A stretch of 30,561 nt of DNA from a virus: positions 1-30,561 of the IMG/VR virus record IMGVR_UViG_3300044970_002118; one strand, given 5' to 3'. Position 1 is the first letter of the stretch. Each line of letters starts with the position of its first letter. Both the position numbers and the translations under genes were made by a program. Shown one piece after another: positions 1,071-27,881 of the stretch. Under the pieces are notes generated by a model. It saw only the letters and a program-made list of their open reading frames with translations. It did no database searches and was not told where the DNA came from.

Positions 1071-1538
1071 TTACTTGGCCGCGGCGCCGGTGACCTGCGC
1101 CATGATCGACGCCTGCGCGTCGGCGATGCTCTTTTGTTCGGCCGAAAGCTCGGGGCTGGAGACCTCGCGGTACTCGACGACCTTCGGGCGCATGCCCAAC
1201 TGCGCCAGGAACATGCCGCGCGCAGTGACCTTTTTCGCACCGTCGCCCTCGCCGAAGTCGAACGTCGCGGAGCCGTCGTCGAGCGTGGCGGCGAATTCCG
1301 CCAGCTGATCGACTTCGGCGGGCAGTACGCGGCCGGCCTTGACGTGCGGATCGATCGCGGCCTTGATGCCGGCGAGCGAGACCTGCTTCACGATCTTCGT
1401 GTGCTCGGTCTGCAGTTCGGAGAAGTCGGCCACGGCCTTGTCGCGTTCGCCCTTGACCTTGGCGAGTTCGTTTTCGGCGGCATCGGCGCGCGCGGCCTTG
1501 ACCTGCAGTTCGGCGATCTGTGCGGGGGTGAGGGTCAT
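1071..1538 (-). CDS. Possible nested scaffold protein from an internal in-frame start
   Basis: An in-frame ATG at 1538 lies at codon 212 of the protease gene, exactly where the coiled-coil part begins, and a GAGG sequence lies 8 bases upstream of it. Translation from here would give a separate 155-residue scaffold protein sharing its C-terminus with the protease. Mu gpI/gpZ and lambda C/Nu3 are known to use this arrangement. The site and the domain boundary are visible; actual use of the start is inferred. Confidence 0.4.
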   Translation of the reverse strand: MTLTPAQIAELQVKAARADAAENELAKVKGERDKAVADFSELQTEHTKIVKQVSLAGIKAAIDPHVKAGRVLPAEVDQLAEFAATLDDGSATFDFGEGDGAKKVTARGMFLAQLGMRPKVVEYREVSSPELSAEQKSIADAQASIMAQVTGAAAK

Positions 1539-2171
1539 ATCGGTGGCCTCGGTAAAGGATGGGATGGGGTTGCTGATCGACTCGCTGGGCTCGCTCGGTT
1601 CGCGTGCGGCTGCATCGAGGTCGGACAGGTAGTAGTTCGGCAGAGTGCGATCAGCGATCTCTACACCCTTTTCGGCAATGAGCCAGTCGCGCAGACCACG
1701 CAGTAACGCGCTGACGCTCGACCAAGCCCAACGTGTCGAGTCGGCGAATTCGATTACGCCCTCCTCGTCCTCGTTGAAAGAAACGTCCTTGAGGCCCTTG
1801 ATCGCCGGCGGCATCGCGCCGAGGAACCCGACGTGGCGCAGGTAGTAGGTGCCCGGGACCGGGTTGTTCGGGGCATCCGGTGCGTAGAACGATGCGCTGC
1901 GCTTCTTGAAGCGGCCGGACTCAACCATCTCGGTAAACTGCGGATCGACCTGCGAAGAATGAGCGACCATTGCGCCGTCGGCGTACTCCAACTTCGACAC
2001 CCACCCGTAGGCCGGGCCGTTGTCCTTCGGATGTCCGACGACGATCGGCGCCTCGTGGATCGCCGGATCGTAGGCACGGATCGATGCCTCCAGGTCCGAC
2101 TCGGTGAAGCTGAGAGCGTGACCGCTGGCGGCGATGTGCTTGCCCGGCTTGAAAATTTCGAAGTGCTGCAT
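1071..2171 (-). CDS. Capsid assembly protease with C-terminal scaffold, Mu gpI-like
   Basis: I start this 366-residue protein at the ATG at 2171 because a GGGAGGG site lies directly upstream; an in-frame ATG at 2207 is further out and has none. Residues 1-100 carry the conserved block GHPKDNGPAYGWV (46-58), followed by RFKKRSASFY, as in Mu gpI-like prohead proteases. Residues from about 212 onward (MTLTPAQIAELQVKAARAD...) form an Ala/Glu/Lys-rich coiled coil expected of a scaffold. This protease-scaffold fusion would direct prohead assembly and then degrade the internal core. The stop is TAA, 45 bases before the decoration gene. The catalytic residues cannot be assigned by eye. Confidence 0.8.
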   Translation of the reverse strand: MQHFEIFKPGKHIAASGHALSFTESDLEASIRAYDPAIHEAPIVVGHPKDNGPAYGWVSKLEYADGAMVAHSSQVDPQFTEMVESGRFKKRSASFYAPDAPNNPVPGTYYLRHVGFLGAMPPAIKGLKDVSFNEDEEGVIEFADSTRWAWSSVSALLRGLRDWLIAEKGVEIADRTLPNYYLSDLDAAAREPSEPSESISNPIPSFTEATDMTLTPAQIAELQVKAARADAAENELAKVKGERDKAVADFSELQTEHTKIVKQVSLAGIKAAIDPHVKAGRVLPAEVDQLAEFAATLDDGSATFDFGEGDGAKKVTARGMFLAQLGMRPKVVEYREVSSPELSAEQKSIADAQASIMAQVTGAAAK

Positions 2172-2222
2172 GCGCCCTCCCGGGGTCGCGCGAAATGTCG
2201 CACGCATGTCGCAGATTTAACA

Positions 2223-2238
2223 GGTGGGACCATTTCCG
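2223..2238 (-). promoter_or_regulatory. Late-type upstream element, copy 2
   Basis: The plus strand reads GGTGGGACCATTTCCG. A 15/16 match in the same orientation lies at 15330-15345. Both sit 52-70 bases upstream of the first gene of a leftward unit (protease at 2171, endolysin at 15275). This suggests a binding site for an activator such as the Mor-like protein. No convincing -10 is visible between this copy and the protease start. Confidence 0.4.
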
Positions 2239-2259: not shown

Positions 2260-2289
2260 TTGACATTGGCATGCTACCGACGGTAGCTT
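2260..2289 (+). promoter_or_regulatory. Early promoter with operator for the plus-strand cassette
   Basis: A perfect -35 TTGACA (2260-2265) is followed 18 bases later by TAGCTT (2284-2289). The spacer holds the 13-bp palindrome CTACCGACGGTAG (2274-2286), extended by G and C to GCTACCGACGGTAGC. The last TAG of the operator is the first half of the -10. A repressor bound here would block RNA polymerase directly. The promoter drives the genes from 2327 rightward. Confidence 0.75.
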
Positions 2290-2326
2290 ATCCATCGTGC
2301 CCGGCAGGACCGGGCAGGAGATCACG

Positions 2327-2521
2327 ATGAAAGCCTTTTTTCCGCTGGACCCGCCCGACCCCAGCGTTCCGCTCGAATTCGAGGCCGATGCCGAACTGAC
2401 CGCGCGCATCCGCGCCGGCCTCGACGCGCACCTAGCCGAGGAAAACGACGCCCGGCCTCTGCATTTGCGCCGCGCCGCGCGACTGGACGCGATGCACAGA
2501 ACCGAAGGCGCTGCGGCATGA
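2327..2521 (+). CDS. Small hypothetical protein, first gene of the cassette
   Basis: The ATG at 2327 follows GGCAGGAGATCACG, a strong ribosome site, so the in-frame ATG at 2297 is rejected. The 64-residue product (MKAFFPLDPPDPSVPLEFEA...) is acidic at the front and Arg/Ala-rich at the back, with no recognisable domain and no membrane segment. It is the first gene after the operator-controlled promoter at 2260. It overlaps the next gene by ATGA, so the two are translationally coupled. Function unknown; position in a repressed early cassette suggests a host-takeover or defence-related role, but nothing in the protein itself shows that. Confidence 0.7.
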   Translation: MKAFFPLDPPDPSVPLEFEADAELTARIRAGLDAHLAEENDARPLHLRRAARLDAMHRTEGAAA

Positions 2522-2982
2522 TCCACGACAGCCATATGCCGACTGCGACCATCGCCGCGATCGACGCAGGCGAGCGCATCACTCGTCGCCGAGCCATTGT
2601 AGCCGTGCGCCACTGTGCATCTTTCGCCGAAACCTTCGCATGGGCAGGCCTCACCAAAGTCGCTCAGGGCTACGCCCTTGACGCGATGCGCATCGCGCAA
2701 CATGTCGCCCGCGCCGGTCGAGTTGCGGCCGTGAGCGGGCCAACCACCCTGACCGAAGCTGCGCGCCAAGCTGCCGAGCTGCTGACCGGCGCACCAGATG
2801 AAGATGTTGCCGCGGCCCTAGCGGCCCGATTGGTGAAGTTGGCGGACGAGCAAGACCGCGTGTTTGCGGAGTTGGCCACGCTGAACGCAACTTCGATGCA
2901 GGCCCTCGGCAGCGAAGGCGAAGGCGATGCGCTCTGCGCCCTTTGGGAAGCTGTTGAAACACTGACGGACGGGGCGAAATGA
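2518..2982 (+). CDS. Hypothetical helical protein, 154 aa
   Basis: The ATG at 2518 overlaps the previous stop (ATGA). The 154-residue product is alanine-rich and looks almost entirely helical, with a stretch rich in Ala, Arg and Glu from about residue 80 to 125 (AARQAAELL, AAALAARLVKLADEQDR). I see no signal peptide, metal-binding motif or catalytic signature and do not recognise the family. A second Met at codon 7 could also serve as start. It is coupled at both ends to its neighbours (ATGA at 2518 and 2979), so it is part of a four-gene translational unit, 2327-3496. Confidence 0.65.
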   Translation: MIHDSHMPTATIAAIDAGERITRRRAIVAVRHCASFAETFAWAGLTKVAQGYALDAMRIAQHVARAGRVAAVSGPTTLTEAARQAAELLTGAPDEDVAAALAARLVKLADEQDRVFAELATLNATSMQALGSEGEGDALCALWEAVETLTDGAK

Positions 2983-3332
2983 TGAAGCGGACCGTGTCTC
3001 AAGAAAAGTGGATTGAATTCCTGCTTTATGTGCTTTCTCCGACACAAGCCAACGGCGGATGGATAAGGCCAGAGCAGATTAGTCAAGACCTCGGGCTGGG
3101 CCGAGCCACAACCTACCGCTATATCGAACGAGCCGAGAAAGCAGGCTTAGCAATGCAGGTGAATATGAAGCGTGGCCCCGAGGTGGGGGCTGGCATTCGC
3201 ACCATGCTTATGACGATTCTCCGGCCCGCGGATTCTTTGCCGATAAGCGAAAGGCGAAAACCAAAGGCCGCAAGAGGCCGCAAGAATCAAAAAGGTCGAA
3301 TCGCTCAAACGCTTACGGACCGCGCCCCATGA
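2979..3332 (+). CDS. Winged-helix DNA-binding protein
   Basis: The start ATG at 2979 overlaps the previous stop; an adjacent Met at 2982 is equivalent. In the 117-residue product, residues 27-63 (WIRPEQISQDLGLGRATTYRYIERAEKAGLA) read as a helix-turn-helix with a recognition helix and the start of a wing. The C-terminus is a lysine/arginine-rich tail (KPKAARGRKNQKG). The gene is visibly lower in GC than the genes around it, which points to separate acquisition. A DNA-binding protein inside a small-gene cassette could autoregulate it, as Aca proteins do for anti-CRISPR operons. That parallel is only structural. Its targets are unknown. Confidence 0.65.
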   Translation: MMKRTVSQEKWIEFLLYVLSPTQANGGWIRPEQISQDLGLGRATTYRYIERAEKAGLAMQVNMKRGPEVGAGIRTMLMTILRPADSLPISERRKPKAARGRKNQKGRIAQTLTDRAP

Positions 3333-3496
3333 CCGCCAAGGCCATCCGCCGCCCGCGCTGGCTGCTGCCTCTGATCCAGGCCGCGCGCCGCGCCAACCCG
3401 AACCCCAGCTTTACAGCCCGCGACTTGGCCGGCTTCCTCGCCGTTTATGCGTTCTGGCTGCTGCTGGTCATCGGTGCCGTCTCCGGCGCCAAATAA
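3329..3496 (+). CDS. Small single-pass membrane protein, 55 aa
   Basis: The ATG at 3329 overlaps the stop of the winged-helix gene (ATGA) and the frame ends with TAA at 3494. The 55-residue product has a basic N-terminal half (RRPRWLLPLIQAARRANPNP) and one clear transmembrane helix near residues 34-52 (LAGFLAVYAFWLLLVIGAV). The positive-inside rule predicts the N-terminus in the cytoplasm. Function unknown. The coupling to its neighbour is the main support that it is a real gene. After it, CCGGG-type arms (3502-3516) can form a short hairpin before the next gene. Confidence 0.6.
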   Translation: MTAKAIRRPRWLLPLIQAARRANPNPSFTARDLAGFLAVYAFWLLLVIGAVSGAK

Positions 3497-3537
3497 GCCC
3501 GCCCGGAAAACCCGGGCCACAACTGAGGAAACACCCG

Positions 3538-3927
3538 ATGCTGCCACCGCCAAATCCCATACAGCCCTCGGCGCTCGCCGCGCCCATTATTGCGCCGACG
3601 ACTGCCGAGACATGGTCTGCCCCGTTCCGCGTTGCACCGCAGCTCGCCGCCGGCGGCGTGAATCCGTTTGCGAACGTACCCACTCGCATCGGCATGATGC
3701 TGACCGCGCCCAACGGGCAGCGAGTGCCGCCGGGTGCCGGCCTCGATCTTTATCTGATCGACAGCCAGGGAAATCTGAATAAGCTCGACATGACCCACAT
3801 AGCCGAGGGCGAGGGCGAGCCGTTTTACCTTGTGGTCGGCGACTACATGGCCTACAAACCGGCGTCGTCCGAGCCCTACGGCCTCGACGCGATCGGCTAC
3901 AGCAGCCAGGCGAACGAAGCGTCGTAA
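3538..3927 (+). CDS. Hypothetical protein, 129 aa
   Basis: The ATG at 3538 follows GAGGAAACACCCG, a good ribosome site. The N-terminal 45 residues are rich in Pro and Ala with no charged clusters. The rest has short predicted strands (TRIGMMLTAPNG, GLDLYLIDSQGN, PFYLVVGDYMAY) and looks like a small beta domain. I do not recognise a family. It has its own leader after the four-gene coupled unit, so it is translated independently but probably on the same transcript. Confidence 0.6.
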   Translation: MLPPPNPIQPSALAAPIIAPTTAETWSAPFRVAPQLAAGGVNPFANVPTRIGMMLTAPNGQRVPPGAGLDLYLIDSQGNLNKLDMTHIAEGEGEPFYLVVGDYMAYKPASSEPYGLDAIGYSSQANEAS

Positions 3928-4032
3928 CCCATCCCCAGGCCGACGCGGGGCCGCCAAGTCGTCACCCGTGCCGGGCTTCTCCAGCCCGTACCCCGCGCAG
4001 CCGACCGTGGCGGCTGTAGCGTAGACACCCGG

Positions 4033-4051
4033 CCCCCGACCGCGGCGGGGG
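4033..4051 (+). other. GC-rich hairpin in a 145-base leader
   Basis: Arms CCCCCG and CGGGGG flank the 7-base loop ACCGCGG between the genes ending at 3927 and starting at 4073. No T-run follows, so it is not a normal intrinsic terminator. It may shape the mRNA leader. I see no gene in 3928-4072. Confidence 0.35.
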
Positions 4052-4072
4052 CGTCCCTCTGAGAACGCACGC

Positions 4073-4549
4073 ATGCCCAACGAGAACCTGCTCCCCTTCG
4101 CCATCCATGGCCAACTGATCGAGATCGGCGACGACGACGATGGCCAGCCGCGGCTAGTCGTCCAGACCACGCGCGAGGCAATCAAGGCCTGCGACGCAAA
4201 CCTGCTGCTCAAGCCCGTCGTCGTGGCACTGCAGGGTGCGACGGAGCCGCCGGCGTTCATCGTGAACGCGGAAGATGGATCGGTCACGCGGGCCTATCCG
4301 ACGGTGTACGACGAGGTGATCGCCGAGCGCGTGCGCCAGGACCGGCAGTGGGGCGGTTCCGAGAACGACAATGCCAACACCTTTGCTGACTGGCTGAAGC
4401 TTATCGACAAACAGGCCAGCTATGCAGCACTTTCCCACTATCCCATAGCGCTCAATTACCGTGAGCGAATGGTGAAAATCGCCGCGCTGGCGGTGGCCGC
4501 GATTGAATCCCTAGACCGGACCATGGTGCGCGGCGCCGAGGCTGGGTGA
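4073..4549 (+). CDS. Phage protein with MazG-like C-terminal region
   Basis: In this 158-residue protein, residues 1-80 are an unknown small beta-type domain. From about residue 82 (VIAERVRQDRQWGGSEND...TFADWLKLI) to the C-terminal helix (RERMVKIAALAVAAIESLDR) it resembles a widespread phage segment related to MazG-type helical nucleotide pyrophosphohydrolases. The usual EExxE metal-binding pattern is not obvious, so activity is uncertain. If active it would hydrolyse (d)NTPs or alarmone-like nucleotides. The next gene overlaps its stop. No strong ribosome site precedes the ATG. Confidence 0.55.
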   Translation: MPNENLLPFAIHGQLIEIGDDDDGQPRLVVQTTREAIKACDANLLLKPVVVALQGATEPPAFIVNAEDGSVTRAYPTVYDEVIAERVRQDRQWGGSENDNANTFADWLKLIDKQASYAALSHYPIALNYRERMVKIAALAVAAIESLDRTMVRGAEAG

Positions 4550-4839
4550 TGCTGACTTCGTCTGCAAAGTACGATCGCCTACGTGCCGAGCACTCCGCTC
4601 TAATCGCGGCTTTTAAAGGCCTATTGGAAGAATGGAACAAGCTCGTCGGGCGGATCAATAATCTCGGCGGGGAAAGGTTCCTTGTAAGCGCGCGAATTGT
4701 CCATGGCGACCCATCGCTATCGGACGATGACCCGCGAAAGTTGTTATTGCTGTGCCACCCCGACCGCCACGACGGAAAACAGATGGCTGTCGAAATGACG
4801 CAGAAGCTGCTCGCGATCAAAGCGAATAAGCGGCCCTGA
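4549..4839 (+). CDS. J-domain-like small protein with HPD motif
   Basis: I use the ATG at 4549 (TGATG overlap with the previous gene, GAGG 7 bases upstream); a GTG at 4546 is the alternative. In the 96-residue product an N-terminal helical segment (RLRAEHSALIAAFKGLLEEWNKLV) precedes LLLLCHPDRHDGK, with His-Pro-Asp at residues 70-72, then a helix VEMTQKLLAIK. This helix - HPD - helix order is the hallmark of DnaJ-type J-domains, which stimulate the ATPase of host DnaK. The region is shorter than a full 70-residue J-domain and lies at the C-terminus, so it may be a degenerate or minimal version. A role in recruiting host DnaK is inference. Confidence 0.55.
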   Translation: MLTSSAKYDRLRAEHSALIAAFKGLLEEWNKLVGRINNLGGERFLVSARIVHGDPSLSDDDPRKLLLLCHPDRHDGKQMAVEMTQKLLAIKANKRP

Positions 4840-4878
4840 TTCACCCACCGCGGCGAAGCCGCACACCACGAGGCCAAT

Positions 4879-5139
4879 ATGTCCTACCCCAATATCCCGC
4901 TTACCCCCGTCGATTCCTCGCAGATTGCCGCCATCGGCTACGACGCCGACAGCCGGACCCTCGCGATCCGGTTCAAGGGCAAGGGCGACTCGCCCGGATC
5001 GCTCTACCACTACGACGACGTGTCGCCCGAGGACTGGGCTGCGTTCCGCGATGCCGAGTCGATGGGCTCGCACTTCTACCGCCACATCAAGCCGTATCCA
5101 GGCAAGTTCCGCTACGCGCGCATCGCCGAGGACGCCTAA
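4879..5139 (+). CDS. KTSC domain protein
   Basis: This 86-residue protein matches the KTSC pattern across its length: a VDSSQIAAIGYDADSRTLAIRFK strand pair near the front, a SLYHYDDVSPEDWAAFRDAES segment, then the closing MGSHFYRHIKPYPGKF. KTSC domains are small beta-rich modules, often fused to lysyl-tRNA synthetase or found alone in phages; their function is not established. A GAGG site lies upstream. The 39-base gap before it holds a small perfect hairpin (GCGGC-GAA-GCCGC, 4850-4862). The next gene begins two bases after its stop. Confidence 0.75.
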   Translation: MSYPNIPLTPVDSSQIAAIGYDADSRTLAIRFKGKGDSPGSLYHYDDVSPEDWAAFRDAESMGSHFYRHIKPYPGKFRYARIAEDA

Positions 5140-5141
5140 GT

Positions 5142-5417
5142 ATGGCCGACTACTATCTACCCGGGACGCCCGTCGTCCGCGTGTCCGAAACCCCGTCGGC
5201 GATCGGCTATGTCGTCGAAACGCACATGAAGCTCGGCGGCTCCGTGCGCTACGACATCATGACCCAGGACAGCGCGGGGCGACCATGGGTTAACGCCGTC
5301 GAGGCGTTCGAAGTCCGGCGCGCGAAGCCGGGCGAGTTGCCGAAGTTCAAGCTGCACCTGGGCAGCGACGATTCGGAGGCATCCGCCCCAACAGAGCCCG
5401 GGAGGGTTAACCATTGA
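5142..5417 (+). CDS. Hypothetical protein, 91 aa
   Basis: The ATG at 5142 is two bases after the KTSC stop. Residues 5-65 read as successive short strands (LPGTPVVRVSETPSAIGYVVETHM, SVRYDIMTQDSAGRPWVNAVEAFEVRRA), suggesting a small SH3-like or KOW-like beta barrel of the kind seen in small phage proteins. The tail is acidic and disordered (SDDSEASAPTEPG). I do not recognise the family. The tight spacing indicates co-translation with the KTSC gene. Confidence 0.55.
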   Translation: MADYYLPGTPVVRVSETPSAIGYVVETHMKLGGSVRYDIMTQDSAGRPWVNAVEAFEVRRAKPGELPKFKLHLGSDDSEASAPTEPGRVNH

Positions 5418-5473
5418 GAAATGGCCGGCCGCAGCCGTCAATCTAGACACTTATTCCAACCAGTGAGGGCGAT

Positions 5474-5815
5474 ATGAGCACACAAACAGCAACACGAATC
5501 CAGATCAACCGCGAGAATCTCCCGAAGGTCATCGCGAAGGCATTCGACCTGTCCAAGCCGCAGGGGATGGGAATTCTCCATTTCATGCCCGGCCCCATCC
5601 CAGAAGATGAGCTTAGCTGGATTTTAGCCAGTGCTGACGAAGCAAAGCTCACCGATCACAAGAAAATACGCCTCGATTATGTGCAAGGCCGAGCGGTCAA
5701 GCTGAGTATCCATTACGACGAAGGCAGCCAGCATTGGTATCTTGAAGGCGACAGATGGTACGACCACAGTCCGGCTGCATGGGAAGATTTGAAAGAATAC
5801 GCGCAATCGCTGTAA
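5474..5815 (+). CDS. Hypothetical protein, 113 aa, low GC
   Basis: The ATG at 5474 is preceded by GAGGGCGAT, a good ribosome site. The 113-residue product has a mixed alpha/beta look: an N-terminal helix (NRENLPKVIAKAFDLS), a strand (GMGILHFMPGP), a helix (PEDELSWILASADEAKL) and a C-terminal part rich in Tyr and Trp (HWYLEGDRWYDHSPAAWEDL). No family recognised. It uses more AT-rich codons than its neighbours, like the winged-helix gene at 2979, which fits a mosaic, recently acquired cassette. A terminator-like hairpin follows at 5892. Confidence 0.55.
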   Translation: MSTQTATRIQINRENLPKVIAKAFDLSKPQGMGILHFMPGPIPEDELSWILASADEAKLTDHKKIRLDYVQGRAVKLSIHYDEGSQHWYLEGDRWYDHSPAAWEDLKEYAQSL

Positions 5816-5891
5816 TCCCGACTTATCCCAAGGAGAGCGCCGAAGACACCGTAACGGCCAGCATGAGCGCCGCAACATGCAGAGAGCAAGG

Positions 5892-5918
5892 GACGCCACG
5901 CCCCATCGTGGCGTCTTT
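5892..5918 (+). terminator. Hairpin terminator after the 113-aa gene
   Basis: A perfect 9-bp stem GACGCCACG/CGTGGCGTC (5892-5900 and 5907-5915) with loop CCCCAT is followed by TTT. It lies about 75 bases after the stop at 5815. The T-run is short, so termination may be partial. Confidence 0.55.
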
Positions 5919-6087
5919 AGGGGGGCGGATTCGGAATGCGCAGGCTGATGCGTAGTGACGGGCGAGCGGTACGGAGTGGGTTGTTTCAGTCAGGTCCCAC
6001 ACGTCGGGAATCCAATCAAGCCGGATAGAAGTCGATAGCAGCACCGGCCCGAGTCCGACCCCCTAAAGAGCACAGCAGGAGATCGCG

Positions 6088-6102
6088 ATGAAAGACGAAT
6101 GA
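6088..6102 (+). other. Four-codon leader-like frame (MKDE)
   Basis: GCAGGAGATCGCG followed by ATGAAAGACGAATGA gives a strong ribosome site, a start, three codons and a stop. The site and start closely resemble those of the gene at 2327 (GGCAGGAGATCACG, ATGAAAG). A stable hairpin follows at 6120. It could be a leader peptide, or the 5' end of a gene whose body was lost. Confidence 0.35.
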
Positions 6103-6119
6103 CGCAACACATTGCAATG

Positions 6120-6150
6120 GGTGCCCGGTCCCAAGATGCCGGGCACCTTC
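6120..6150 (+). terminator. Terminator-like hairpin
   Basis: A perfect 9-bp stem GGTGCCCGG/CCGGGCACC (6120-6128 and 6139-6147) with loop TCCCAAGATG is followed by TTCT. It lies just after the MKDE leader frame and 130 bases before the gene at 6281, so it may act as a terminator or attenuator. Confidence 0.45.
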
Positions 6151-6280
6151 TAAGCATCTTCACGCATGCGGTTGGATACGGGATGTCGGTCCCTAACCAG
6201 CCCCGACAGGCTACCCTCGCGGAGAGGGCCGGCCGCATTCGTGAGGGTGAATACGCAGCAGAAAAGCGAAAGGAAATTCC

Positions 6281-6574
6281 ATGCACGAGATCGTCTATAT
6301 CGCGGTATTCGGTGCGATCATCGCCGCGGTGATGTTCCTGCCGCGCCCCGCTGTGTCTTGGCGATGGCCGGCCAGCGGCCACACGCCGAGCGAACATGCT
6401 GGGCCGTCGCCGGAGCGCGTGCGCAAGCTGGCGATCGGCGTGCGTACTTGGTTGCCGACGGACGAGGCCGAGACCTTCGATGATATGTGTCGCGCGCTCG
6501 GGTTCGACGTGCCGCCCGTGCCGCGGAAGCGCCTGCTGCCGCCGAACCCCGTGCGCCAGGACGACGAGGACTGA
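6281..6574 (+). CDS. Small membrane-anchored hypothetical protein, 97 aa
   Basis: The ATG at 6281 follows AAAGGAAATTCC, a clear ribosome site. The 97-residue product opens with a hydrophobic helix (IVYIAVFGAIIAAVMFLP, residues 4-21) that would act as a membrane anchor, followed by a soluble cytoplasmic or periplasmic tail. The tail holds one helical segment (SPERVRKLAIGVRTWLPTDEAETFDDMCRALGF) and a proline-rich end. No family recognised. It is the last plus-strand gene of the cassette. Its stop is four bases from the convergent end of the minus-strand gene 6579-6764, so transcription from both sides meets here. Confidence 0.6.
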   Translation: MHEIVYIAVFGAIIAAVMFLPRPAVSWRWPASGHTPSEHAGPSPERVRKLAIGVRTWLPTDEAETFDDMCRALGFDVPPVPRKRLLPPNPVRQDDED

Positions 6575-6578
6575 CCGA

Positions 6579-6764
6579 TCAGCGATCCGCGCCCTCGGGC
6601 AGGTCGCGGTCGTAGTCCTCTTCTGAGATCGGCCGGCCCCTGTCCAGGGCCTCGGTCATGAGCCCGGCGAGCGTGTCGTCATCCATGCCGATGACGTGAA
6701 GCGGAGCCTGCCCGAAAGCATCAATGTAGCGCCCCATGAGGGCAGCGAAAGCCTCAGTCGCCAT
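6579..6764 (-). CDS. Small acidic protein after the MuF-like head gene, 61 aa
   Basis: I use the ATG at 6764, which overlaps the end of the head protein gene by 11 bases and has a GAGAGGATT ribosome site; an upstream GTG/ATG-rich extension to 6845 would lie inside the larger gene. The 61-residue product (MATEAFAALMGRYIDAFGQ...) is helical at the front and strongly acidic at the end (EEDYDRDLPEGADR). No family recognised. It is the last gene of the terminase - portal - head block before the opposite-strand cassette, so it is probably a late protein. Confidence 0.6.
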   Translation of the reverse strand: MATEAFAALMGRYIDAFGQAPLHVIGMDDDTLAGLMTEALDRGRPISEEDYDRDLPEGADR

Positions 6765-8565
6765 TGCGAACAATCCTCTCGAACTCGCGCGCCATGCGCG
6801 GGAAAAAGCGCCGGGCCAGCTCCCACCACAGCGCGCTCGGCGCACCGGCGGACGCCGTCAGGTTCGCGAACGCCTCGGTTTGCTGTCCGAAGCCCGCGCG
6901 CTTACGGTAGTAGGCCTCTGTGTGGCCGGGGAAGCCGGCCCCGACGCTCGCCAGTTTGTTGCGGGTCGCGGCACCGATCAGGTCGGCGAACGATCCGAGC
7001 ATACCCTTGTTCCAACTGTCGCGGACGGCGATGAAGTGCGCGCGGCGATCATCGACAGATGCACCGACCAGCTGACCCGTGGTGTCCATGCCCGCGGCCT
7101 CGGCGACGAAGCGCTCAACGTCTCGCCGCTCGATCGCCTCCAGAATCCGCGCCATGCGGATGTCGCCGGCCAGCGTGTCGAACAGGGCAGCGCTGTTGGC
7201 CTTGAGTTCGGCGCGGAGCGCGGCGAGATCAATGCCCAGGGCGCCGGCACGCTGCTGCAGGTACTCGCGCCGGCCCTCGGGCGTCATGTCGATCAGGGTC
7301 GGCTGCAGGCGGCGGTAGGTCTCGACCAGCTCCGCACGCTTCGGCATGTCCTTCGCCCCGCCCATGTGCGCCTGTTTAATCAGGTCGCGGGCATCGGCGC
7401 GCATCGCATTGGTAAACGCATCGCCGGCCGAGACGCGGCCAAGCGCTCGTGTGCCGCCCGAGCTGGCCAGGCTGCCGATGCGCACGTCGAGGATGTGGCC
7501 GAACTTGTGGCGCCAAGTCGCGAGGTGTTCAAGGCTCGCGGTCGTGTAGGCCGGCGGCATGTTGACCGACGAGCCGAAGGTCGCATAGGCGCCACCGGGG
7601 AGCGTGGTCACGTTCACCGCCTGCTCGCGCACGACGATGGGCATCAGCCATTCCTGCGCGCCGCGCCACGACTTGACGTGCCAGGCGCCGGCAGCGGTTG
7701 ACGCATTGAACTGCAGGTCGGCCGTGCGCTGCGCCGCCCGCAGCCCCTCCCGCCCAGCCTCGCGGATCTCCGCGGGCAGCGCCTCAATCTTCTCGCCCGC
7801 GAGCCGGCGCAACTCCTCCAGCCGCTTCGCGCCCGGGTTGTGGTCAAACCCCGGATCGATGCCGAGCGGGATGCGCTCGACTTTGCCAGTGCGCGGGTTC
7901 GTCCAGTCGTAGGTGCCCTGCGCCGGCACGGCCGTGACCTGCAGGCCGAGGTCGTCCAGGTCGTCTTTAGACAGTTGGATGATACTGCAACGGCAATTCC
8001 AGCCGTTCGGCGGGGTGTGCGTGCGCCACCAGGGATGCGACACGGGCAGCACCGTGCCATCCCACGCCGCGTGATCAGGCCGCGTGCGGTGATCGTCCAC
8101 GGCATCGTACAGCAGGTAGGGCGCGTCTTGGGCCTGGGCGGCGATCTGCTGCCACATGCCCACGGCGTAGGCCGTCTGCATGTTGGTCCGAAAGATCGTC
8201 TGCAGGCGGTATGGTGCCCCCAGTTGCGCGGTGACCTTGAGGCCTGTGGCCGGGTCGATGACTTCGCGCCGGCCCCACCATCCCTTTTCCTGCAGCATCG
8301 GCGTGATGCTGCGCGCCCACTCCTGATACGGCGTGCCGCGCTCCGCTGCATCGATCAGGCTTTGGTGCACGGTCGCCAGGAGGTCCGTGTCCATCATCTT
8401 CGCGATCACGGACGCGGCCGCGCGCTCCTCGCCCACCATGTCGGCGTAGCTGAACAACTCGGAAAGCCCGCGCGAACGCAGGAACGCGAGCGCGTCCTTC
8501 GGCTTCGTGTCCCAGCCGATCGTGATCGGCGAGTCTAGGAATTCGAGCAGGGCGCCGATCTTCAC
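6754..8565 (-). CDS. Head morphogenesis protein, Mu gpF / SPP1 gp7-like, with zincin-like C-terminal region
   Basis: The 603-residue protein starts with GTG at 8565, eight bases after the portal stop; the N-terminus (GWDTKPKDALAFLRSRG) is too typical to trim. Residues about 130-200 carry the gpF signature: FRTNMQTAYAVGMWQQ, DHRTRPDHAAWDGTVLPVSHPWW and a Cys-containing GWNCRCSI. Such minor head proteins bind the portal during DNA packaging. The C-terminal 250 residues look like a metallopeptidase-type domain: HKFGH at 353-357 in place of HExxH, and TEAFANL near 564 as a possible third-ligand region. Lys replaces the catalytic Glu, so the domain is probably inactive. It overlaps the next gene by 11 bases. 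Confidence 0.85.
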   Translation of the reverse strand: MKIGALLEFLDSPITIGWDTKPKDALAFLRSRGLSELFSYADMVGEERAAASVIAKMMDTDLLATVHQSLIDAAERGTPYQEWARSITPMLQEKGWWGRREVIDPATGLKVTAQLGAPYRLQTIFRTNMQTAYAVGMWQQIAAQAQDAPYLLYDAVDDHRTRPDHAAWDGTVLPVSHPWWRTHTPPNGWNCRCSIIQLSKDDLDDLGLQVTAVPAQGTYDWTNPRTGKVERIPLGIDPGFDHNPGAKRLEELRRLAGEKIEALPAEIREAGREGLRAAQRTADLQFNASTAAGAWHVKSWRGAQEWLMPIVVREQAVNVTTLPGGAYATFGSSVNMPPAYTTASLEHLATWRHKFGHILDVRIGSLASSGGTRALGRVSAGDAFTNAMRADARDLIKQAHMGGAKDMPKRAELVETYRRLQPTLIDMTPEGRREYLQQRAGALGIDLAALRAELKANSAALFDTLAGDIRMARILEAIERRDVERFVAEAAGMDTTGQLVGASVDDRRAHFIAVRDSWNKGMLGSFADLIGAATRNKLASVGAGFPGHTEAYYRKRAGFGQQTEAFANLTASAGAPSALWWELARRFFPRMAREFERIVRNGD

Positions 8566-10076: not shown

Positions 10077-11671
10077 ACGATGAATCCCGAGGTGTCGGTG
10101 CCGCCGCCGATACTACCAAAGCCGAACGCGCTACCGGAACTAGTAGAGGCGCCCGCGCCGTAGCCGACGCGCTGATCGCCTGACGTGGCGACGCCCGTGA
10201 TGCTCACGCGGTCCTGCATCCAGCGCAGGGCCTGCGAGGTGCTATCCACCTGGTCCTTGTGCTTCGACAGCGGGAAGCGGCCGACCTCCATCTCGTAATC
10301 CAGCAACCAGTCGGCTTCCTCGGGCAGATACACCTGACCCGATTCGATGGTCGGGCTGACCACGCTCGCGCGGGTGACCTTGTCACCTTCGGGCTCAATC
10401 GCGATCACGGGTAGCGAGGTCGTGTCCTTGAGGTCTTGGATAAGTTGCTGGCCGCTGGCCTTGTCCTCAATCAGCACCGCGTCCGGGTTCCATGCCTTGG
10501 CGTGGGCGATCGCGGTGCGGCGCAGGGCCGGGTACTCCATCCGCTCGCGCAGGACGTGCGCGATGAACTTGCCGCGGCGACTTACGATCCAGGTTGTGCA
10601 TACGCTGGGGTCATTGATCTCGGCCGCCTTGTTCGCGGTGTCCCAGGACTGGACGACCATGATGCGGTCTTCGGGCAGGCCCTTGTATCGACCGAACCAG
10701 GACAGCTTCCACAGCCCGCCATCATCGGGCGCCGGCTTCTGCTGGTACAGGGCGGCCCAGTTGCGGGAGCCCTGCGTGCGCCGTTCCTGCTCCCAGTGTT
10801 CCGGCGTGAACCAGTCGGTCCACAACCATTCGCCGATCTCGCGGCCGAGCGGGTCATCTTGCCGCTCGCACTGCGCCTGCAAGCACAGCACGTACCATTT
10901 TTCGCCATCCTGAGCTGTCACCCAACCCGACTCGCCGTCCCAGTCCTTGGGCAGGATGCGGCCGGCGATGTCGTCCTCGTGCCACCGGGTCTGGATGATG
11001 AGGATAAACCCGCCCGGCTTTAGACGGGTGCGCACGCTGGCCTTGTACTCCTCCCAGATGCGATTCCTGATCGTCTCGCTGTCGGCGTCCTGGCGGCCCT
11101 TGAGCGGGTCATCGATCACAATGCCGTCGGCGCGGTTGCCCGTGATGCCGGCATCAATACCGGCCGCCATAAAGCTCGACCCGGAATCAAGCGCCCAGTC
11201 GTCGGCCGCCTTGTTGTCCGACACGAGGCCGGTGCCGAACACCTCGCGATACTCCTTTGACCGCGCGATCTGCCGGCACTTTCGGCCGAACTTGCGGGCG
11301 AGGTCGGCGCCGTAGCTGGTCGTGATGACGTGCCGGCCGCGCTTGCGGCCCATGAACCACGTCGGAAAGGTCACGGTGCCGTAGGTCGATTTGGCCGAGC
11401 CAGGGGGCATGAAGATCATGATCCGGCGCATCTCGCCGGCCTCGACGCGCATCAGGGTCCGATTGATCAGCTGGTGATGTTCGGCCGGCGTGACGGTATC
11501 GCGATAGAACTCGGCGCAGTCGGGGTCCTCGTCATTGATCGGCGCCCCCGGGATCTCGATGTACCTGCAGTATGCGTTCAGGTCGTCCCGGGCTAGCCGG
11601 CGACGGCGCTCCTCCAGCAGCTTTAGCAGCCGCTCACGGTCCCGGCGGTCGCTGGCCGCCAGCGCACTCAC
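10073..11671 (-). CDS. Terminase large subunit
   Basis: The 532-residue protein is the packaging motor and headful/site nuclease. The ATPase half shows Walker A MPPGSAKST (88-96), Walker B GIVIDDP (183-189) and the coupling segment IIQTRWHEDD (225-234). The nuclease half shows QSWDTA (341-346) and IEDKASG (401-407), which supply acidic metal ligands. The last 40 residues are a Gly/Ser-rich, probably disordered tail (GAGASTSSGSAFGFGSIGGG). The start is GTG at 11671, inside a GTGA overlap with the small subunit gene, so the two subunits are made in a coupled way. Confidence 0.93.
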   Translation of the reverse strand: MSALAASDRRDRERLLKLLEERRRRLARDDLNAYCRYIEIPGAPINDEDPDCAEFYRDTVTPAEHHQLINRTLMRVEAGEMRRIMIFMPPGSAKSTYGTVTFPTWFMGRKRGRHVITTSYGADLARKFGRKCRQIARSKEYREVFGTGLVSDNKAADDWALDSGSSFMAAGIDAGITGNRADGIVIDDPLKGRQDADSETIRNRIWEEYKASVRTRLKPGGFILIIQTRWHEDDIAGRILPKDWDGESGWVTAQDGEKWYVLCLQAQCERQDDPLGREIGEWLWTDWFTPEHWEQERRTQGSRNWAALYQQKPAPDDGGLWKLSWFGRYKGLPEDRIMVVQSWDTANKAAEINDPSVCTTWIVSRRGKFIAHVLRERMEYPALRRTAIAHAKAWNPDAVLIEDKASGQQLIQDLKDTTSLPVIAIEPEGDKVTRASVVSPTIESGQVYLPEEADWLLDYEMEVGRFPLSKHKDQVDSTSQALRWMQDRVSITGVATSGDQRVGYGAGASTSSGSAFGFGSIGGGTDTSGFIV

Positions 11672-12195
11672 TTCGGCGTGCCGTACTTCGCCGTCAATTC
11701 AGCGATGCGCGCCTCAATCTCGGCGTCGGAGTAAGACGAGTATTCGCGTTCGCCGCTCGGATCGGTCGGGGCGACCTTTTGCGGCGCGTCCATGCCCAGG
11801 ATCTTCGCCCGGCGCTCGCCGATGTTGACCAAAACGGTCAGGTAGCGCGGGTCGCCGCACTGGCCTCCGGTCTCAATCTTGGACTTGCTGCCTTCCTTGC
11901 CGCCCTTCTCGGCGACCCTCTTAACGTAATCTTTCTTCGAGCGCTCCCACTCGGACCACGTCTCGGCCTCAATTGCGTCCAGCCGGCGCAACTCGCGGGC
12001 CTTGACCGCGGCGATGTCCTCGGCCGCGCTTTTCTGCCATTCGCCGACCAGCGCTTTCAACTCCCGGCGCACCGTCATGACGCTCAGGCCGGTTTCGGCC
12101 GCTATCTCGCTCAGGGTTCGGCCGCGCAGGCGCAGGCGCGAGATAGTCTCGCGGTCCTTGATCTTCTGGGCCTTTGATCGCTTTTCGCCGGGCAT
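11668..12195 (-). CDS. Terminase small subunit (probable)
   Basis: The 175-residue protein directly precedes and overlaps the large subunit gene. Residues about 15-50 (RETISRLRLRGRTLSEIAAETGLSVMTVRRELKALV) are a helix-turn-helix, as expected for recognising the packaging site. A long helical, Lys/Glu-rich middle (WSEWERSKKDYVKRVAEKGGKEG) and a conserved YLTVLVNIGERRAKILGMDAP segment follow; the latter occurs in many phage small terminases and would be the oligomerisation region. No strong ribosome site is visible before the ATG at 12195. The pac or cos site, if nearby, cannot be identified by eye. Confidence 0.8.
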   Translation of the reverse strand: MPGEKRSKAQKIKDRETISRLRLRGRTLSEIAAETGLSVMTVRRELKALVGEWQKSAAEDIAAVKARELRRLDAIEAETWSEWERSKKDYVKRVAEKGGKEGSKSKIETGGQCGDPRYLTVLVNIGERRAKILGMDAPQKVAPTDPSGEREYSSYSDAEIEARIAELTAKYGTPK

Positions 12196-15275: not shown

Positions 15276-15294
15276 GTCAACGTCCTCTGGAGTG

Positions 15295-15307
15295 CTACGG
15301 AAGGTAG
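15295..15307 (-). promoter_or_regulatory. Operator upstream of the lysis operon
   Basis: On the reverse strand it reads CTACCTTCCGTAG, one mismatch from dyad symmetry with the other four operators. It lies 20 bases upstream of the endolysin ATG. No good -35 precedes it, which would fit an activator-dependent late promoter that is also repressed in the lysogen. Confidence 0.6.
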
Positions 15308-15325
15308 CGTAAGAACTGGTCCCGG

Positions 15326-15694
15326 TCACGGTGGGACCATTGCCGCGCGCCCCTGAACCCCTGCAGCGCCGAGGATTTTTCGCACCATCCGCGGGCTTAT
15401 CCGGTTTTCGCGCGCGATCTTACTGATTGCTTCGCGGGCGAGGTACGCGGTAACGATGGCGTCATTGCGTGCACGAATCAGCGCGGTGCGCTCGGCGGGA
15501 ACGTAGATCTCCACGTCGGGGAAGGCCTCGCACAGCTTGCGCGCGGCATCGACGCCGATCGCCACGCACAGCGGATGCTCATCGCGAACCGACACCGGCA
15601 CCCGGAGCATGTCCCCACCGTAGACCCGCGTTAGGCCGATCAGAGCCGGCATGCCGATAACGGCGATGACTTGATCGATCTCGCTCGCGCTCAC
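15326..15694 (-). CDS. Mor-family transcription activator
   Basis: The start is GTG 15694 in a GTGA overlap with the 35-aa gene. The 122-residue protein follows the Mor/C pattern of Mu-like phages: a dimerisation region, the strand VEIYVPAERT (61-70), then RARNDAIVTAYLAREAISKIARENRISPRMVRKIL (74-108), a helix-turn-helix. Mor-type proteins activate middle or late promoters that lack a proper -35. It is the last gene of the leftward early operon, directly before the lysis and head genes, so it is the best candidate for their activator. The shared elements at 2223 and 15330 are candidate binding sites. Confidence 0.78.
   Translation of the reverse strand: MSASEIDQVIAVIGMPALIGLTRVYGGDMLRVPVSVRDEHPLCVAIGVDAARKLCEAFPDVEIYVPAERTALIRARNDAIVTAYLAREAISKIARENRISPRMVRKILGAAGVQGRAAMVPP
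15330..15345 (-). promoter_or_regulatory. Late-type upstream element, copy 1
   Basis: The plus strand reads GGTGGGACCATTGCCG, a 15/16 match to 2223-2238. It lies at the 3' end of the Mor-like gene, 55-70 bases upstream of the endolysin start. On the reverse strand GGTCCC and GGGACC arms nine bases apart (15317-15337) form a dyad at this copy only. Confidence 0.4.
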
Positions 15695-17600: not shown

Positions 17601-18276
17601 GTGAAGGGGTCTCAGGTTTCACGGGGAATAGGCCGCGCCAGCCGCGTGCGATTGACTGCTCAAGCACGGCGGCCGGGTCTTGTCCATTGGCGCGCAACTT
17701 CTCAAGCGCGCGCACGTTGAAACGCATAGCGTCCTGCGTGTTCGGTGCGCGTATCTTTTTCCGCACGTCGAGCCATGATGCCCACAGGTCGGCGGGCACC
17801 CATTCGGGCAGTTCAAACATCTGCGCAGACGTTGCGCGCGCGCCCTTGTTCAACCCCTTAGGGTTGATATCGTTAGATGGGACGTTATGTGCAACCTCAG
17901 GAGTTGCAGGGGGTGCAACCTCAGGAGTTGCAGGGGGTGCAACCTCAGGAGTTGCAGGGGTGGGCGATGCGATAGCGCGCAGCACGGACGCGGGATGCTC
18001 CGTGTCGTACAGCACGCGCATGCGGTTCGATGCCTGCCCGCCGTCATCTCGGCGACGCTCGCGCGTCTCGATGTAGCCGCAGTCGCAGAGCACGCGCATC
18101 GACTTCTGCACCGCCTGCCTCGTGACGCCCAGCAACTCGCCGATGCGCCCGAGCGTCGGATAGCACCATCCGTCGCGGTCAGTGTGCAGGCCTATCGCGG
18201 CCAGCACCGAAAGGTCGCGCAGGCTCAGACGCTCGTCGGTGACGGCTGATGCTGGGATTATTGAGAACCGACCCAT
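17506..18276 (-). CDS. Replication initiator, O-like, with winged-helix domain and origin iterons inside the gene
   Basis: The ATG at 18276 follows GGGAGGGCTCG. The 256-residue protein has an N-terminal helix-turn-helix domain (about 16-90: LRDLSVLAAIGLHTDRDGWCYPTLGRIGELLGVTRQAVQKSMRVL). A linker holds three copies of TPEVAPPA (about 106-128). The C-terminal domain (WASWLDVRKKIRAPNTQDAMRFNVRALEKL...IARGWRGLFPV, about 165-219) is typical of phage O-like initiators, where this end contacts the P-like loader. The linker repeats are encoded by palindromic iterons at 17890, so the protein probably binds DNA within its own gene, as lambda O does. It follows cro in the leftward operon. Confidence 0.82.
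   Translation of the reverse strand: MGRFSIIPASAVTDERLSLRDLSVLAAIGLHTDRDGWCYPTLGRIGELLGVTRQAVQKSMRVLCDCGYIETRERRRDDGGQASNRMRVLYDTEHPASVLRAIASPTPATPEVAPPATPEVAPPATPEVAHNVPSNDINPKGLNKGARATSAQMFELPEWVPADLWASWLDVRKKIRAPNTQDAMRFNVRALEKLRANGQDPAAVLEQSIARGWRGLFPVKPETPSHETNHPSGRRESVAERAERINREHDAREGLF
17850..17867. repeat. Inverted repeat beside the iterons
   Basis: TCAACCC and GGGTTGA flank CTTA, a perfect 7-bp dyad. The adjoining bases to 17889 (ATATCGTTAGATGGGACGTT) are AT-richer than the surroundings and could be the unwinding element of the origin. Confidence 0.5.
17890..17961. repeat. Three 24-bp palindromic iterons, candidate replication origin
   Basis: The sequence TGCAACCTCAGGAGTTGCA occurs three times, at 17890-17908, 17914-17932 and 17938-17956, exactly 24 bases apart. 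Each copy is a dyad (TGCAAC / GTTGCA, seven-base centre), so each can bind a protein dimer. They lie in the linker-coding part of the O-like gene, like the iterons of lambda ori. I infer this is the phage origin bound by the product of the same gene. Confidence 0.78.
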
Positions 18277-18304: not shown

Positions 18305-18598
18305 TCATGCCGCGCTCTGATCGGCGCGCACTTCGTAGCCCAGCTCCTGAGCCGTCAGGTCGCCGTAGAGGTCCGGGCGGATGGTGCGCAGATCGACGAT
18401 GCCGTGCGACAATCGGACAAAGTCGCGGCATTTCTCGGCGGGAACCGGGAGACCAGGGGCGTAAAAGTGCCGGACGCGCTCGCCGGTATTATAGCCGAGG
18501 GCCTTGGCCGCATTCGTGATCCCGCCCATGGCCGTGATCGCGGCGCGGATCAGCCGACTGCGTTTATCGTCGGCGGGAATGTGCATCTTCGGGGGCAT
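18305..18598 (-). CDS. Cro/YdaS-like DNA-binding regulator
   Basis: I start at ATG 18598, with AGGA five bases upstream, giving 97 residues. The helix-turn-helix is RAAITAMGGITNAAKALGYNTGERVRHFY (about 18-46). The part LPVPAEKCRDFVRLSHGIVDLRTIRPDLYGDL (about 50-80) is the typical tail of YdaS/Cro-like phage regulators. It is the first gene of the leftward early operon, divergent from the CI-like gene, and its promoter (18633-18661) overlaps an operator. As in lambda, it would repress from the shared operators during lytic growth. Which operator it prefers is unknown. Confidence 0.78.
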   Translation of the reverse strand: MPPKMHIPADDKRSRLIRAAITAMGGITNAAKALGYNTGERVRHFYAPGLPVPAEKCRDFVRLSHGIVDLRTIRPDLYGDLTAQELGYEVRADQSAA

Positions 18599-18626: not shown

Positions 18627-18639
18627 CTACCGATGGTAG
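18627..18639. promoter_or_regulatory. Operator between cro and cI
   Basis: CTACCGATGGTAG is a perfect 5-3-5 palindrome. It covers the -10 of the leftward cro promoter and lies just before the possible cI start at 18640. It is identical to the operator at 27866. A further CTACC half-site is at 18662-18666. Confidence 0.75.
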
Positions 18640-18675: not shown

Positions 18676-19131
18676 ATGCGGATAAACAGGGATGTTTCGG
18701 CCGAGGAGTTCGCGCAGCGACTCCAGAAAGCCGCCCACGCGCGCGGCCTGACCTCGGGCCGCAGCCGGTCGGGCGTGGATGTCGTCGCCCTGGCCGCGGC
18801 GATCGACGCCAGTTACGAAATGGCTCGCCGCTATGCCAAGGGGCTCGCGACGTCGAAGCCCGAGGCGATCCGGCTGCTTGCGCGCTGGCTCAGGGTTTCC
18901 CCGGCATGGCTCGCCTACGGCGAGGGCGGCATGGACGCAAAAAGCGACGTGGACGTTGTTTTGCTTGAATCGTGTATCAAAGCCGTCACGGACGCGCAAC
19001 GCACCTCCGGGGTAGCTCTGAGCAACGAGAGCCTTGCACACCTGGTTTCCGGCCTATACCTGGAGGCGCGCGACGGAAGTTTGCCGTCTGCGGCCAGTGT
19101 GGCGGCCACCCTAAAAGCCCTGAACAGGTGA
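18676..19131 (+). CDS. CI-like repressor without peptidase domain
   Basis: I prefer ATG 18676, giving 151 residues (MRINRDVSAEEFAQRLQKAA); ATG 18640, right after the operator, would add 12 residues. Neither has a ribosome site, so a leaderless message like lambda cI is possible. Residues about 30-83 (VDVVALAAAIDASYEMARRYAKGLATSKPEAIRLLARWLRVSPAWLAYGEGGM) are a CI-type helix-turn-helix domain. The C-terminal 65 residues are helical and lack the Ser/Lys dyad of S24 peptidases, so RecA-stimulated self-cleavage is not expected. It is divergent from the Cro-like gene and likely to bind the CTACC-type operators. Confidence 0.75.
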   Translation: MRINRDVSAEEFAQRLQKAAHARGLTSGRSRSGVDVVALAAAIDASYEMARRYAKGLATSKPEAIRLLARWLRVSPAWLAYGEGGMDAKSDVDVVLLESCIKAVTDAQRTSGVALSNESLAHLVSGLYLEARDGSLPSAASVAATLKALNR

Positions 19132-19339: not shown

Positions 19340-19368
19340 TTGCATTTCTTTTCTACCGGCGGTAGTAT
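19340..19368 (+). promoter_or_regulatory. Promoter with operator for the recombination operon
   Basis: TTGCAT (19340-19345) and TAGTAT (19363-19368) are 17 bases apart. CTACCGGCGGTAG (19353-19365) fills the spacer, and its last TAG begins the -10. This drives recT and the following genes. The open frame starting at 19340 is ruled out because it lies upstream of the transcription start. Confidence 0.75.
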
Positions 19369-25435: not shown

Positions 25436-25680
25436 AACAAGCCGCCAAGCTCACCGCGCGCGCCCTCGTGCACACGATCCAGCCGGCGATACACGCCGGC
25501 TTGACCATCGGCGCGCTGGTCGCGTTCGACCTGACCGCGATCAGTTGGTTGTGGCCCTTGAGCCTAACGGTGTATCCCATCCTCGCCATCGCCGCGATCG
25601 TCGCGCTCGGCATCTACGCCGCGCCAGACGCTCCGGCCACCGAGCCCGGCGGCAGTCCGGGCACCGAGAACAATCCATGA
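25432..25680 (+). CDS. Small two-helix membrane protein, 82 aa
   Basis: The start is GTG 25432 with GAGGG seven bases upstream. The 82-residue product has a short basic front (MKQAAKLTARALVHTIQ), then hydrophobic helices AIHAGLTIGALVAFDLTAISWLW and LSLTVYPILAIAAIVALGIYAA, and a disordered Pro/Glu-rich end (PDAPATEPGGSPGTEN). No family recognised. It overlaps the methyltransferase gene by ATGA, so both are probably made from the same message in a coupled way. Confidence 0.6.
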   Translation: MKQAAKLTARALVHTIQPAIHAGLTIGALVAFDLTAISWLWPLSLTVYPILAIAAIVALGIYAAPDAPATEPGGSPGTENNP

Positions 25681-27851: not shown

Positions 27852-27881
27852 TTGCGCTCCGTATACTACCGATGGTAGTAT
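27852..27881 (+). promoter_or_regulatory. Promoter with operator for the adenine-methyltransferase operon
   Basis: TTGCGC (27852-27857) and TAGTAT (27876-27881) are 18 bases apart. The operator CTACCGATGGTAG (27866-27878) overlaps the -10, the same design as at 2260 and 19340. It lies in the 147-base gap after the C5 methyltransferase. Confidence 0.7.

Follow-up and report, generated by a model that had tools for sequence, protein, structure and literature searches.

We analyzed a 30.6-kb virus contig (IMG/VR record IMGVR_UViG_3300044970_002118, positions 1 to 30,561; 30,561 nucleotides [nt], hereafter the window), in which eleven small plus-strand genes lie inside the minus-strand head operon, between the genes for the head maturation protease and the MuF head morphogenesis protein. 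We consider it probable (about 0.74) that this cassette is an accessory operon of the early lytic phase, housed in a fixed-position slot with swappable contents at the MuF/protease junction of a group of siphophages with Mu-type heads. A first-pass annotation of the window had described a separately controlled accessory cassette; comparison with relatives bears this out: in these, the slot holds nothing, a short stretch, or unrelated genes. We found no block conserved in all relatives for virion assembly.

A reversed block of small genes splits the head operon

The window phage encodes Mu-type head genes (Portal_Mu and MuF) and a Terminase_6-type large terminase, together with RusA, RecT, a YqaJ exonuclease, SSB, and DNA methyltransferases. 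Its head genes read leftward from the small terminase (TerS; 11668-12195) through the large terminase (TerL) and the portal (Portal_Mu, E = 4e-101) to MuF (E = 4e-23), and then to the protease. These gene matches agree with the earlier description of a head order in which TerS-TerL-portal-MuF is separated from the protease by plus-strand genes. The eleven open reading frames (ORFs), here numbered g1 to g11, span 2327-6574 between the protease and MuF with its adjacent gene of 61 amino acids (aa); with the promoter at about 2260 and the last gene ending at 6574, the annotated extent of the cassette (2260-6574) holds. A codon-usage gene caller supported 10 of the 11 ORFs and missed g3. The slot is bounded by the following genes.

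1071 to 2207, minus strand: head maturation protease, the downstream flank of the slot in the order of head transcription
6579 to 6764, minus strand: 61-aa acidic gene directly after MuF, the inner boundary of the slot; homologs occupy the same place in two relatives (loci L022 and L023)
6754 to 8565, minus strand: MuF head morphogenesis protein, the upstream flank of the slot in the order of head transcription

The slot, rather than its content, is conserved

To characterize the junction in relatives, we surveyed the MuF-protease distance at 47 loci, 46 of them non-redundant once the duplicate of this phage was removed. Most loci were reached by MuF alignment, and the relatives are mostly metagenome fragments. 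The gap ranged from 66 bp to 6.2 kb. At 24 of the 46 non-redundant loci, small genes on the reverse strand took up 600 bp or more between MuF and the protease; most loci without such a block were empty or held one to three small forward genes. By parsimony on a MuF tree, the state of the block changed about seven times in all, at least three of them on well-supported branches, and was nonetheless clustered. The window grouped with L024, L034, and L047 (Shimodaira-Hasegawa-like approximate likelihood ratio test [SH-aLRT], 90). L024 has a 965-bp gap with three small reverse genes, and the gaps of the block-free L034 and L047 are 430 bp and 305 bp. The block-free L023 has the whole MuF (40% identity) and the 61-aa gene (E = 6e-7) in common with the window; its 61-aa gene is followed by a hairpin and then by the protease, with no block genes. 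In L022, MuF and the 61-aa gene are followed by reverse-strand ORFs up to the contig end, one of them winged-helix-like. The eleven window proteins had no convincing match among 193 reverse-strand proteins of other blocks (blastp; phmmer --max). The junction thus has the pattern of a hotspot, with the same flanks around absent, shorter, or non-homologous content, and because the same flanks carry no, short, or other content in relatives, we conclude that it is the slot that is conserved rather than what fills it.

Turnover also occurs within a species group. The closest named relatives of the window phage are the Stenotrophomonas phages Suso, StM171, and QH16 and the Xanthomonas phage HXX_Dennis (identity of about 55% for MuF, about 49% for the portal, and about 40% for the protease). 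In the Suso group, the flanks are 93-99% identical while the genes at both ends of the block are swapped: next to the promoter lies a member of family 11, of family 15, or of each, and at the far end individual phages have families 2, 12, 13-14, or 3. A block core of about seven genes is kept. The cassette had first been described as inserted; what the survey reveals is a recurrent slot of a large phage group and not a single insertion.

A recurrent dyad overlaps the cassette promoter

A second contig (L014; 54.6 kb), 99.99% identical to the window over their common parts, is probably the complete circular map of this phage, given that a 99-nt tandem repeat makes its ends overlap. We used both sequences to place the putative control elements of the cassette.

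2260 to 2289, plus strand: cassette promoter, with -35 TTGACA at 2260-2265, an 18-bp spacer, and -10 TAGCTT at 2284-2289
18627 to 18639: dyad between two divergent regulators
19353 to 19365: dyad at the promoter of the RecT-YqaJ-SSB operon
27866 to 27878: dyad upstream of the DUF4942 gene
18305 to 18598, minus strand: Cro/YdaS-like regulator, a homolog of the Suso "immunity repressor" and candidate dyad binder
18676 to 19131: helix-turn-helix (HTH)-like protein, an alternative candidate repressor
5889 to 5918, plus strand: hairpin 1, terminator-like; -19.2 kcal/mol, weak against shuffled sequences (z = -1.6)
6119 to 6148, plus strand: hairpin 2, terminator-like; -24.6 kcal/mol, z = -4.1

The promoter had been called a consensus one, and its -35 is indeed perfect, but the -10 matches at only 3 of 6 positions and a standard promoter scan makes no call. 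Overlapping the promoter is a dyad, CTACCGACGGTAG (GCTACCGACGGTAGC at 2273-2287). Sites of the form CTACC-N3-GGTAG occur in the window at 2274, 18627, 19353, and 27866, and CTAC-N5-GTAG was observed 5 times in the 54.6-kb genome versus 0.11 expected, so the phage operator annotated at this promoter corresponds to a real dyad. Its five places are the cassette, the space between the divergent regulators, the RecT operon, the region upstream of the DUF4942 gene, and the stretch preceding the lysis genes. At contig position 48444, before another operon, a promoter nearly identical to that of the cassette (TTGACATTGGCATGCCACCGACGGTAGCATT) includes a sixth site, which has a single mismatch. Judged by sequence, the cassette therefore shares a putative operator with replication and regulator units. 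The block promoter of L024, the nearest relative, reads TTGACA-17-TAGTAT, and a perfect 22-bp palindrome (ACTAGGCCAGCACTGGCCTAGT, at about 6129-6150) fills its spacer, giving a geometry like that of the window with a different dyad.

Two hairpins are present, as had been annotated, but the T runs at both are short or absent. They follow g10 and could end the cassette transcript; since both precede g11, this gene may lie outside the operon, perhaps as its own unit. Between the hairpins is a mini-ORF (ATG AAA GAC GAA TGA, 6088-6102) with a ribosome site resembling that of g1 (GGAGATCGCGATGAAA versus GGAGATCACGATGAAA), which may be what is left of a former start of the cassette.

The cassette genes and their families in other early regions

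All eleven genes are on the plus strand.

2327 to 2521, plus strand: g1, 64 aa; ribosome site AGGAGA
2518 to 2982, plus strand: g2, 154 aa; predicted all-helical, low confidence
2979 to 3332, plus strand: g3, 117 aa; winged-helix-like, predicted DNA-binding; G+C content (GC) 0.545
3329 to 3496, plus strand: g4, 55 aa; one membrane helix likely; matches no family
3538 to 3927, plus strand: g5, 129 aa
4073 to 4549, plus strand: g6, 158 aa; phrog_2831 match in the C-terminal half (E = 1.4e-6)
4549 to 4839, plus strand: g7, 96 aa; stretch weakly resembling a J domain, containing an HPD motif (CHPDRH)
4879 to 5139, plus strand: g8, 86 aa; KTSC domain (E = 4.4e-20)
5142 to 5417, plus strand: g9, 91 aa
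5474 to 5815, plus strand: g10, 113 aa; phrog_12532-like family, widespread in phages
6281 to 6574, plus strand: g11, 97 aa; N-terminal membrane helix; downstream of both hairpins

The winged-helix assignment of g3 rests on a match to HTH_29 in Pfam (E = 3e-5) that, at 24.5 bits, falls below the cutoff of 28.1, and the gene is the one missed by codon scoring. It did not align with the winged-helix-like ORF of L022. The match of g7 to DnaJ was not significant (E = 0.057), and a single-sequence structure model of g2 was of low confidence (predicted local distance difference test [pLDDT], 69). The g10 model is confident (pLDDT 91) and alpha/beta; it had no match in the Protein Data Bank (best E = 1.2), and in a viral structure library it had one close, nameless match (E = 1.5e-13) and nothing else significant. 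The g10 family has invariant residues P29, G31, G33, L35, H36, D68, Y69, G72, R73, K76, and D97. Single-protein searches of viral contigs with g2, g6, and g10 returned the near-identical phage only, and relatives of g10 were reached only by alignment-based search. The lower GC reported for the genes at 2979 and 5474 was borne out (0.545 for g3 and 0.52 for g10, versus 0.651 for the whole window) and extends to g7 (0.55); the remaining genes match the genome composition.

Gene families of the blocks recur in other early regions. The blocks of relatives encode a C5-methyltransferase (L030 and L028), DUF4942 proteins (L036, L040, and L061), and a RecA-dependent-nuclease family. The block C5-methyltransferase is 34% identical to the one that the window itself encodes at 25680-27761, and the block DUF4942 proteins are related to the window gene at 27909-29471; the 25.7-29.5 kb region holding both homologs carries the operator-like dyad at 27866. 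Depending on the phage, genes of these two families thus occupy either this slot or an early region of the conventional kind. Suso carries a homolog of the KTSC gene g8 in its DnaD-RusA operon, Shewanella phage QDWS has one next to a RecT-exonuclease pair, and a g10 homolog lies directly upstream of a recombinase in Xanthomonas phage Olaya. Such contexts, with RecT/ERF-exonuclease genes as neighbors of g8 and g10 homologs, point to early genes. The cassette had been called early; we infer early expression because its operator-like site is common with replication units and because block families occur in other early operons.

A model for the cassette and alternative explanations

If the cassette is an early accessory operon, the phage repressor, most likely the Cro/YdaS-like regulator or the HTH-like protein, would bind the dyad and keep the cassette promoter shut in lysogeny along with the replication units. 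Upon infection or induction, transcription of the cassette would begin early, run opposite to the leftward head transcript that comes later, and stop around 5.9-6.15 kb, at the hairpins. Splitting the head operon could be tolerated because protease and capsid are probably transcribed from a late promoter of their own, for which a 12-mer is a candidate.

2223 to 2234, minus strand: AATGGTCCCACC, candidate late-promoter element of the protease-capsid unit
15330 to 15341, minus strand: other copy of the 12-mer, upstream of the lysis genes and next to a Mor-like gene

The 54.6-kb genome has no further exact copy. Both lie on the late strand and upstream of late units, making the 12-mer a candidate promoter element of the Mor type for late genes; a search for a late-promoter element that Suso shares with the window found none. 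The products would adapt the phage to particular hosts, by DNA modification and recombination accessories in relatives and possibly by anti-defense or host-takeover functions in the window phage.

Several results weigh against this reading. Only g8 is firmly named among the eleven products, most others being without a function, and gene calls in the relatives came from a simple, home-made caller. A fifth dyad (GCTACGGAAGGTAGC, 15294-15308) lies just upstream of the lysis genes; the operator is thus not exclusive to early units, and late genes may be under this regulator as well. The window dyad was rejected as a phage-wide operator in Suso-type phages, where near matches are at chance level except at the block promoter, and promoter-like boxes were not significantly enriched at relatives' blocks overall (Fisher p = 0.30). 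Control by the main repressor is therefore proposed for the window phage only. The block dyads of L038 and L024 had no clear recurrence elsewhere in their contigs, so a regulon of the window type was not shown there.

An alternative that we regard as possible, with odds short of even, is a strict anti-defense island, whose main job would be to block CRISPR (clustered regularly interspaced short palindromic repeats), restriction, or other host immunity. Its junction is that of the anti-CRISPR locus of Pseudomonas Mu-like phages such as JBD30, whose MuF is homologous to that of the window (36%, E = 6e-42). In such phages, a plasticity region before the head protease carries anti-CRISPR genes, has low GC, and is expressed early (PMC4378225, PMC8027618): the anti-CRISPR genes of RGP G lie in low-GC regions (PMC4378225), and in DMS3vir acrIE3-aca1 is expressed early, directly upstream of protease I (PMC8027618). 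The winged-helix gene of the cassette and the DNA methyltransferases among relatives' block genes point the same way. However, the cassette proteins have no recognizable anti-defense match in Pfam, PHROGs, PADLOC, or NCBIfam, which for PADLOC is weak evidence because this library covers defense and not anti-defense. In addition, g3 has no similarity to Aca1 (JBD30 gene 36, the sole Aca family compared), the block is reversed and apparently under a phage-wide operator rather than an Aca-type local one, and at least two genes (g8 and g10) come from families found with recombination genes. The anti-defense or host-takeover role first suggested for the cassette is thus plausible by position, without a recognizable anti-defense match among the window genes.

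It is unlikely that the cassette is a moron or lysogenic-conversion unit, expressed independently and active in the prophage. Small, partly low-GC genes inside late genes, with their own promoter (albeit with a weak -10) and two hairpins, would suit one; however, the operator that overlaps the promoter is common with replication units, which predicts silence in the lysogen, and the named genes of relatives' blocks are of lytic DNA-metabolism types. Virion-associated or head-assembly accessory genes are a very improbable identity: although the cassette sits inside the head module and the Suso-group block core is stable across about 70% nucleotide identity, the genes are on the opposite strand, have no structural-protein family matches, and are missing from block-free relatives that have the same head genes. 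We give next to no credence to an artifact of assembly or annotation, already largely refuted, in which shadow ORFs would fill a non-coding or chimeric stretch. Long opposite-strand ORFs (one of 280 aa at 3445-4287 overlaps the cassette) and the failure of g3 in codon scoring might raise this suspicion, but the junction recurs in the second, 54.6-kb contig at 99.99% identity, the KTSC and g10 families are real, and isolated phages carry syntenic blocks.

Comparison with known systems

In JBD30, genes 35 and 36, which we take to be the anti-CRISPR gene and aca1, lie between gene 34 and the protease gene 37. Like this and other loci of the RGP G type, the window cassette lies between MuF/G and the head protease and consists of variable, partly low-GC small genes including an HTH-like one; its own early expression, proposed here, would be a further common point. 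The anti-CRISPR locus contains a few small genes, which in JBD30 run in the same direction as the head genes, and its aca1 comes after the anti-CRISPR gene, whereas the cassette has eleven opposite-strand genes, a putative operator common with replication units, and no Acr or Aca1 match. The window protease is homologous to the B3/JBD67 type and weakly similar to that of JBD30. We therefore regard the cassette as a variant at the known anti-CRISPR position, larger, reversed, and apparently under the main operator, and do not classify it among anti-CRISPR loci.

The blocks of Suso, HXX_Dennis, StM171, and QH16 are closer in form, with the same head order, slot, and reversed orientation and about 10-12 small genes; the HXX_Dennis block promoter has a GCTAC-N5-GTAGC dyad, as in the window. 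They differ in having no genes homologous to the window block, the Suso KTSC homolog being in the DnaD-RusA operon. The MuF-protease block is not discussed in the accessible portions of the genome and isolate papers on Suso-type phages. Short, closely packed, dispensable, and exchangeable genes are also features of lambda ninR-type regions, a comparison drawn in PMC4378225; unlike these, the cassette lies within head genes and is divergent from them.

When a slot stays in place while its content changes, even among phages of one species, its position can guide the search for genes selected in the arms race. The one well-studied case, the Pseudomonas anti-CRISPR junction, is here extended to phages of Xanthomonadaceae and of many metagenomes, as well as to a reversed, putatively repressor-controlled form, which makes gene-by-gene hypotheses testable. 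More tentatively, and against our own expectation, the MuF/protease junction might be a general counter-defense and host-takeover slot across the large Mu-head phage group, far larger than the anti-CRISPR site. If so, position alone would nominate about a hundred uncharacterized families of small proteins for anti-immunity screening (94 representatives from the 193 block proteins, plus the window's eleven).

Other features of the phage genome

MuF has a C-terminal extension of ~300 aa, common to L022 and L023, with a metalloprotease-like HKFGH motif and no Pfam match. MuF with this extension and the 61-aa acidic gene resemble a polymorphic toxin of the MuF type paired with a putative immunity protein, a toxin family described in PMC5576092. 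The MuF proteins of relatives differ and run much longer, up to about 1,700 aa.

Within the C5-methyltransferase gene, 26430-26627 is a perfect, in-frame 99-nt tandem duplication; its copy number may be a matter of assembly, because the 54.6-kb sister contig breaks exactly there. Three perfect 24-nt tandem repeats (17889-17960) expand a linker in the DnaD-like gene. The 54.6-kb contig also carries a cluster of tRNA-Arg, tRNA-Phe, and tRNA-Tyr genes (contig positions 1989-2064 and 8546-8794) and a tRNA-Met gene beside a match to an integrase C terminus (41484-41675).

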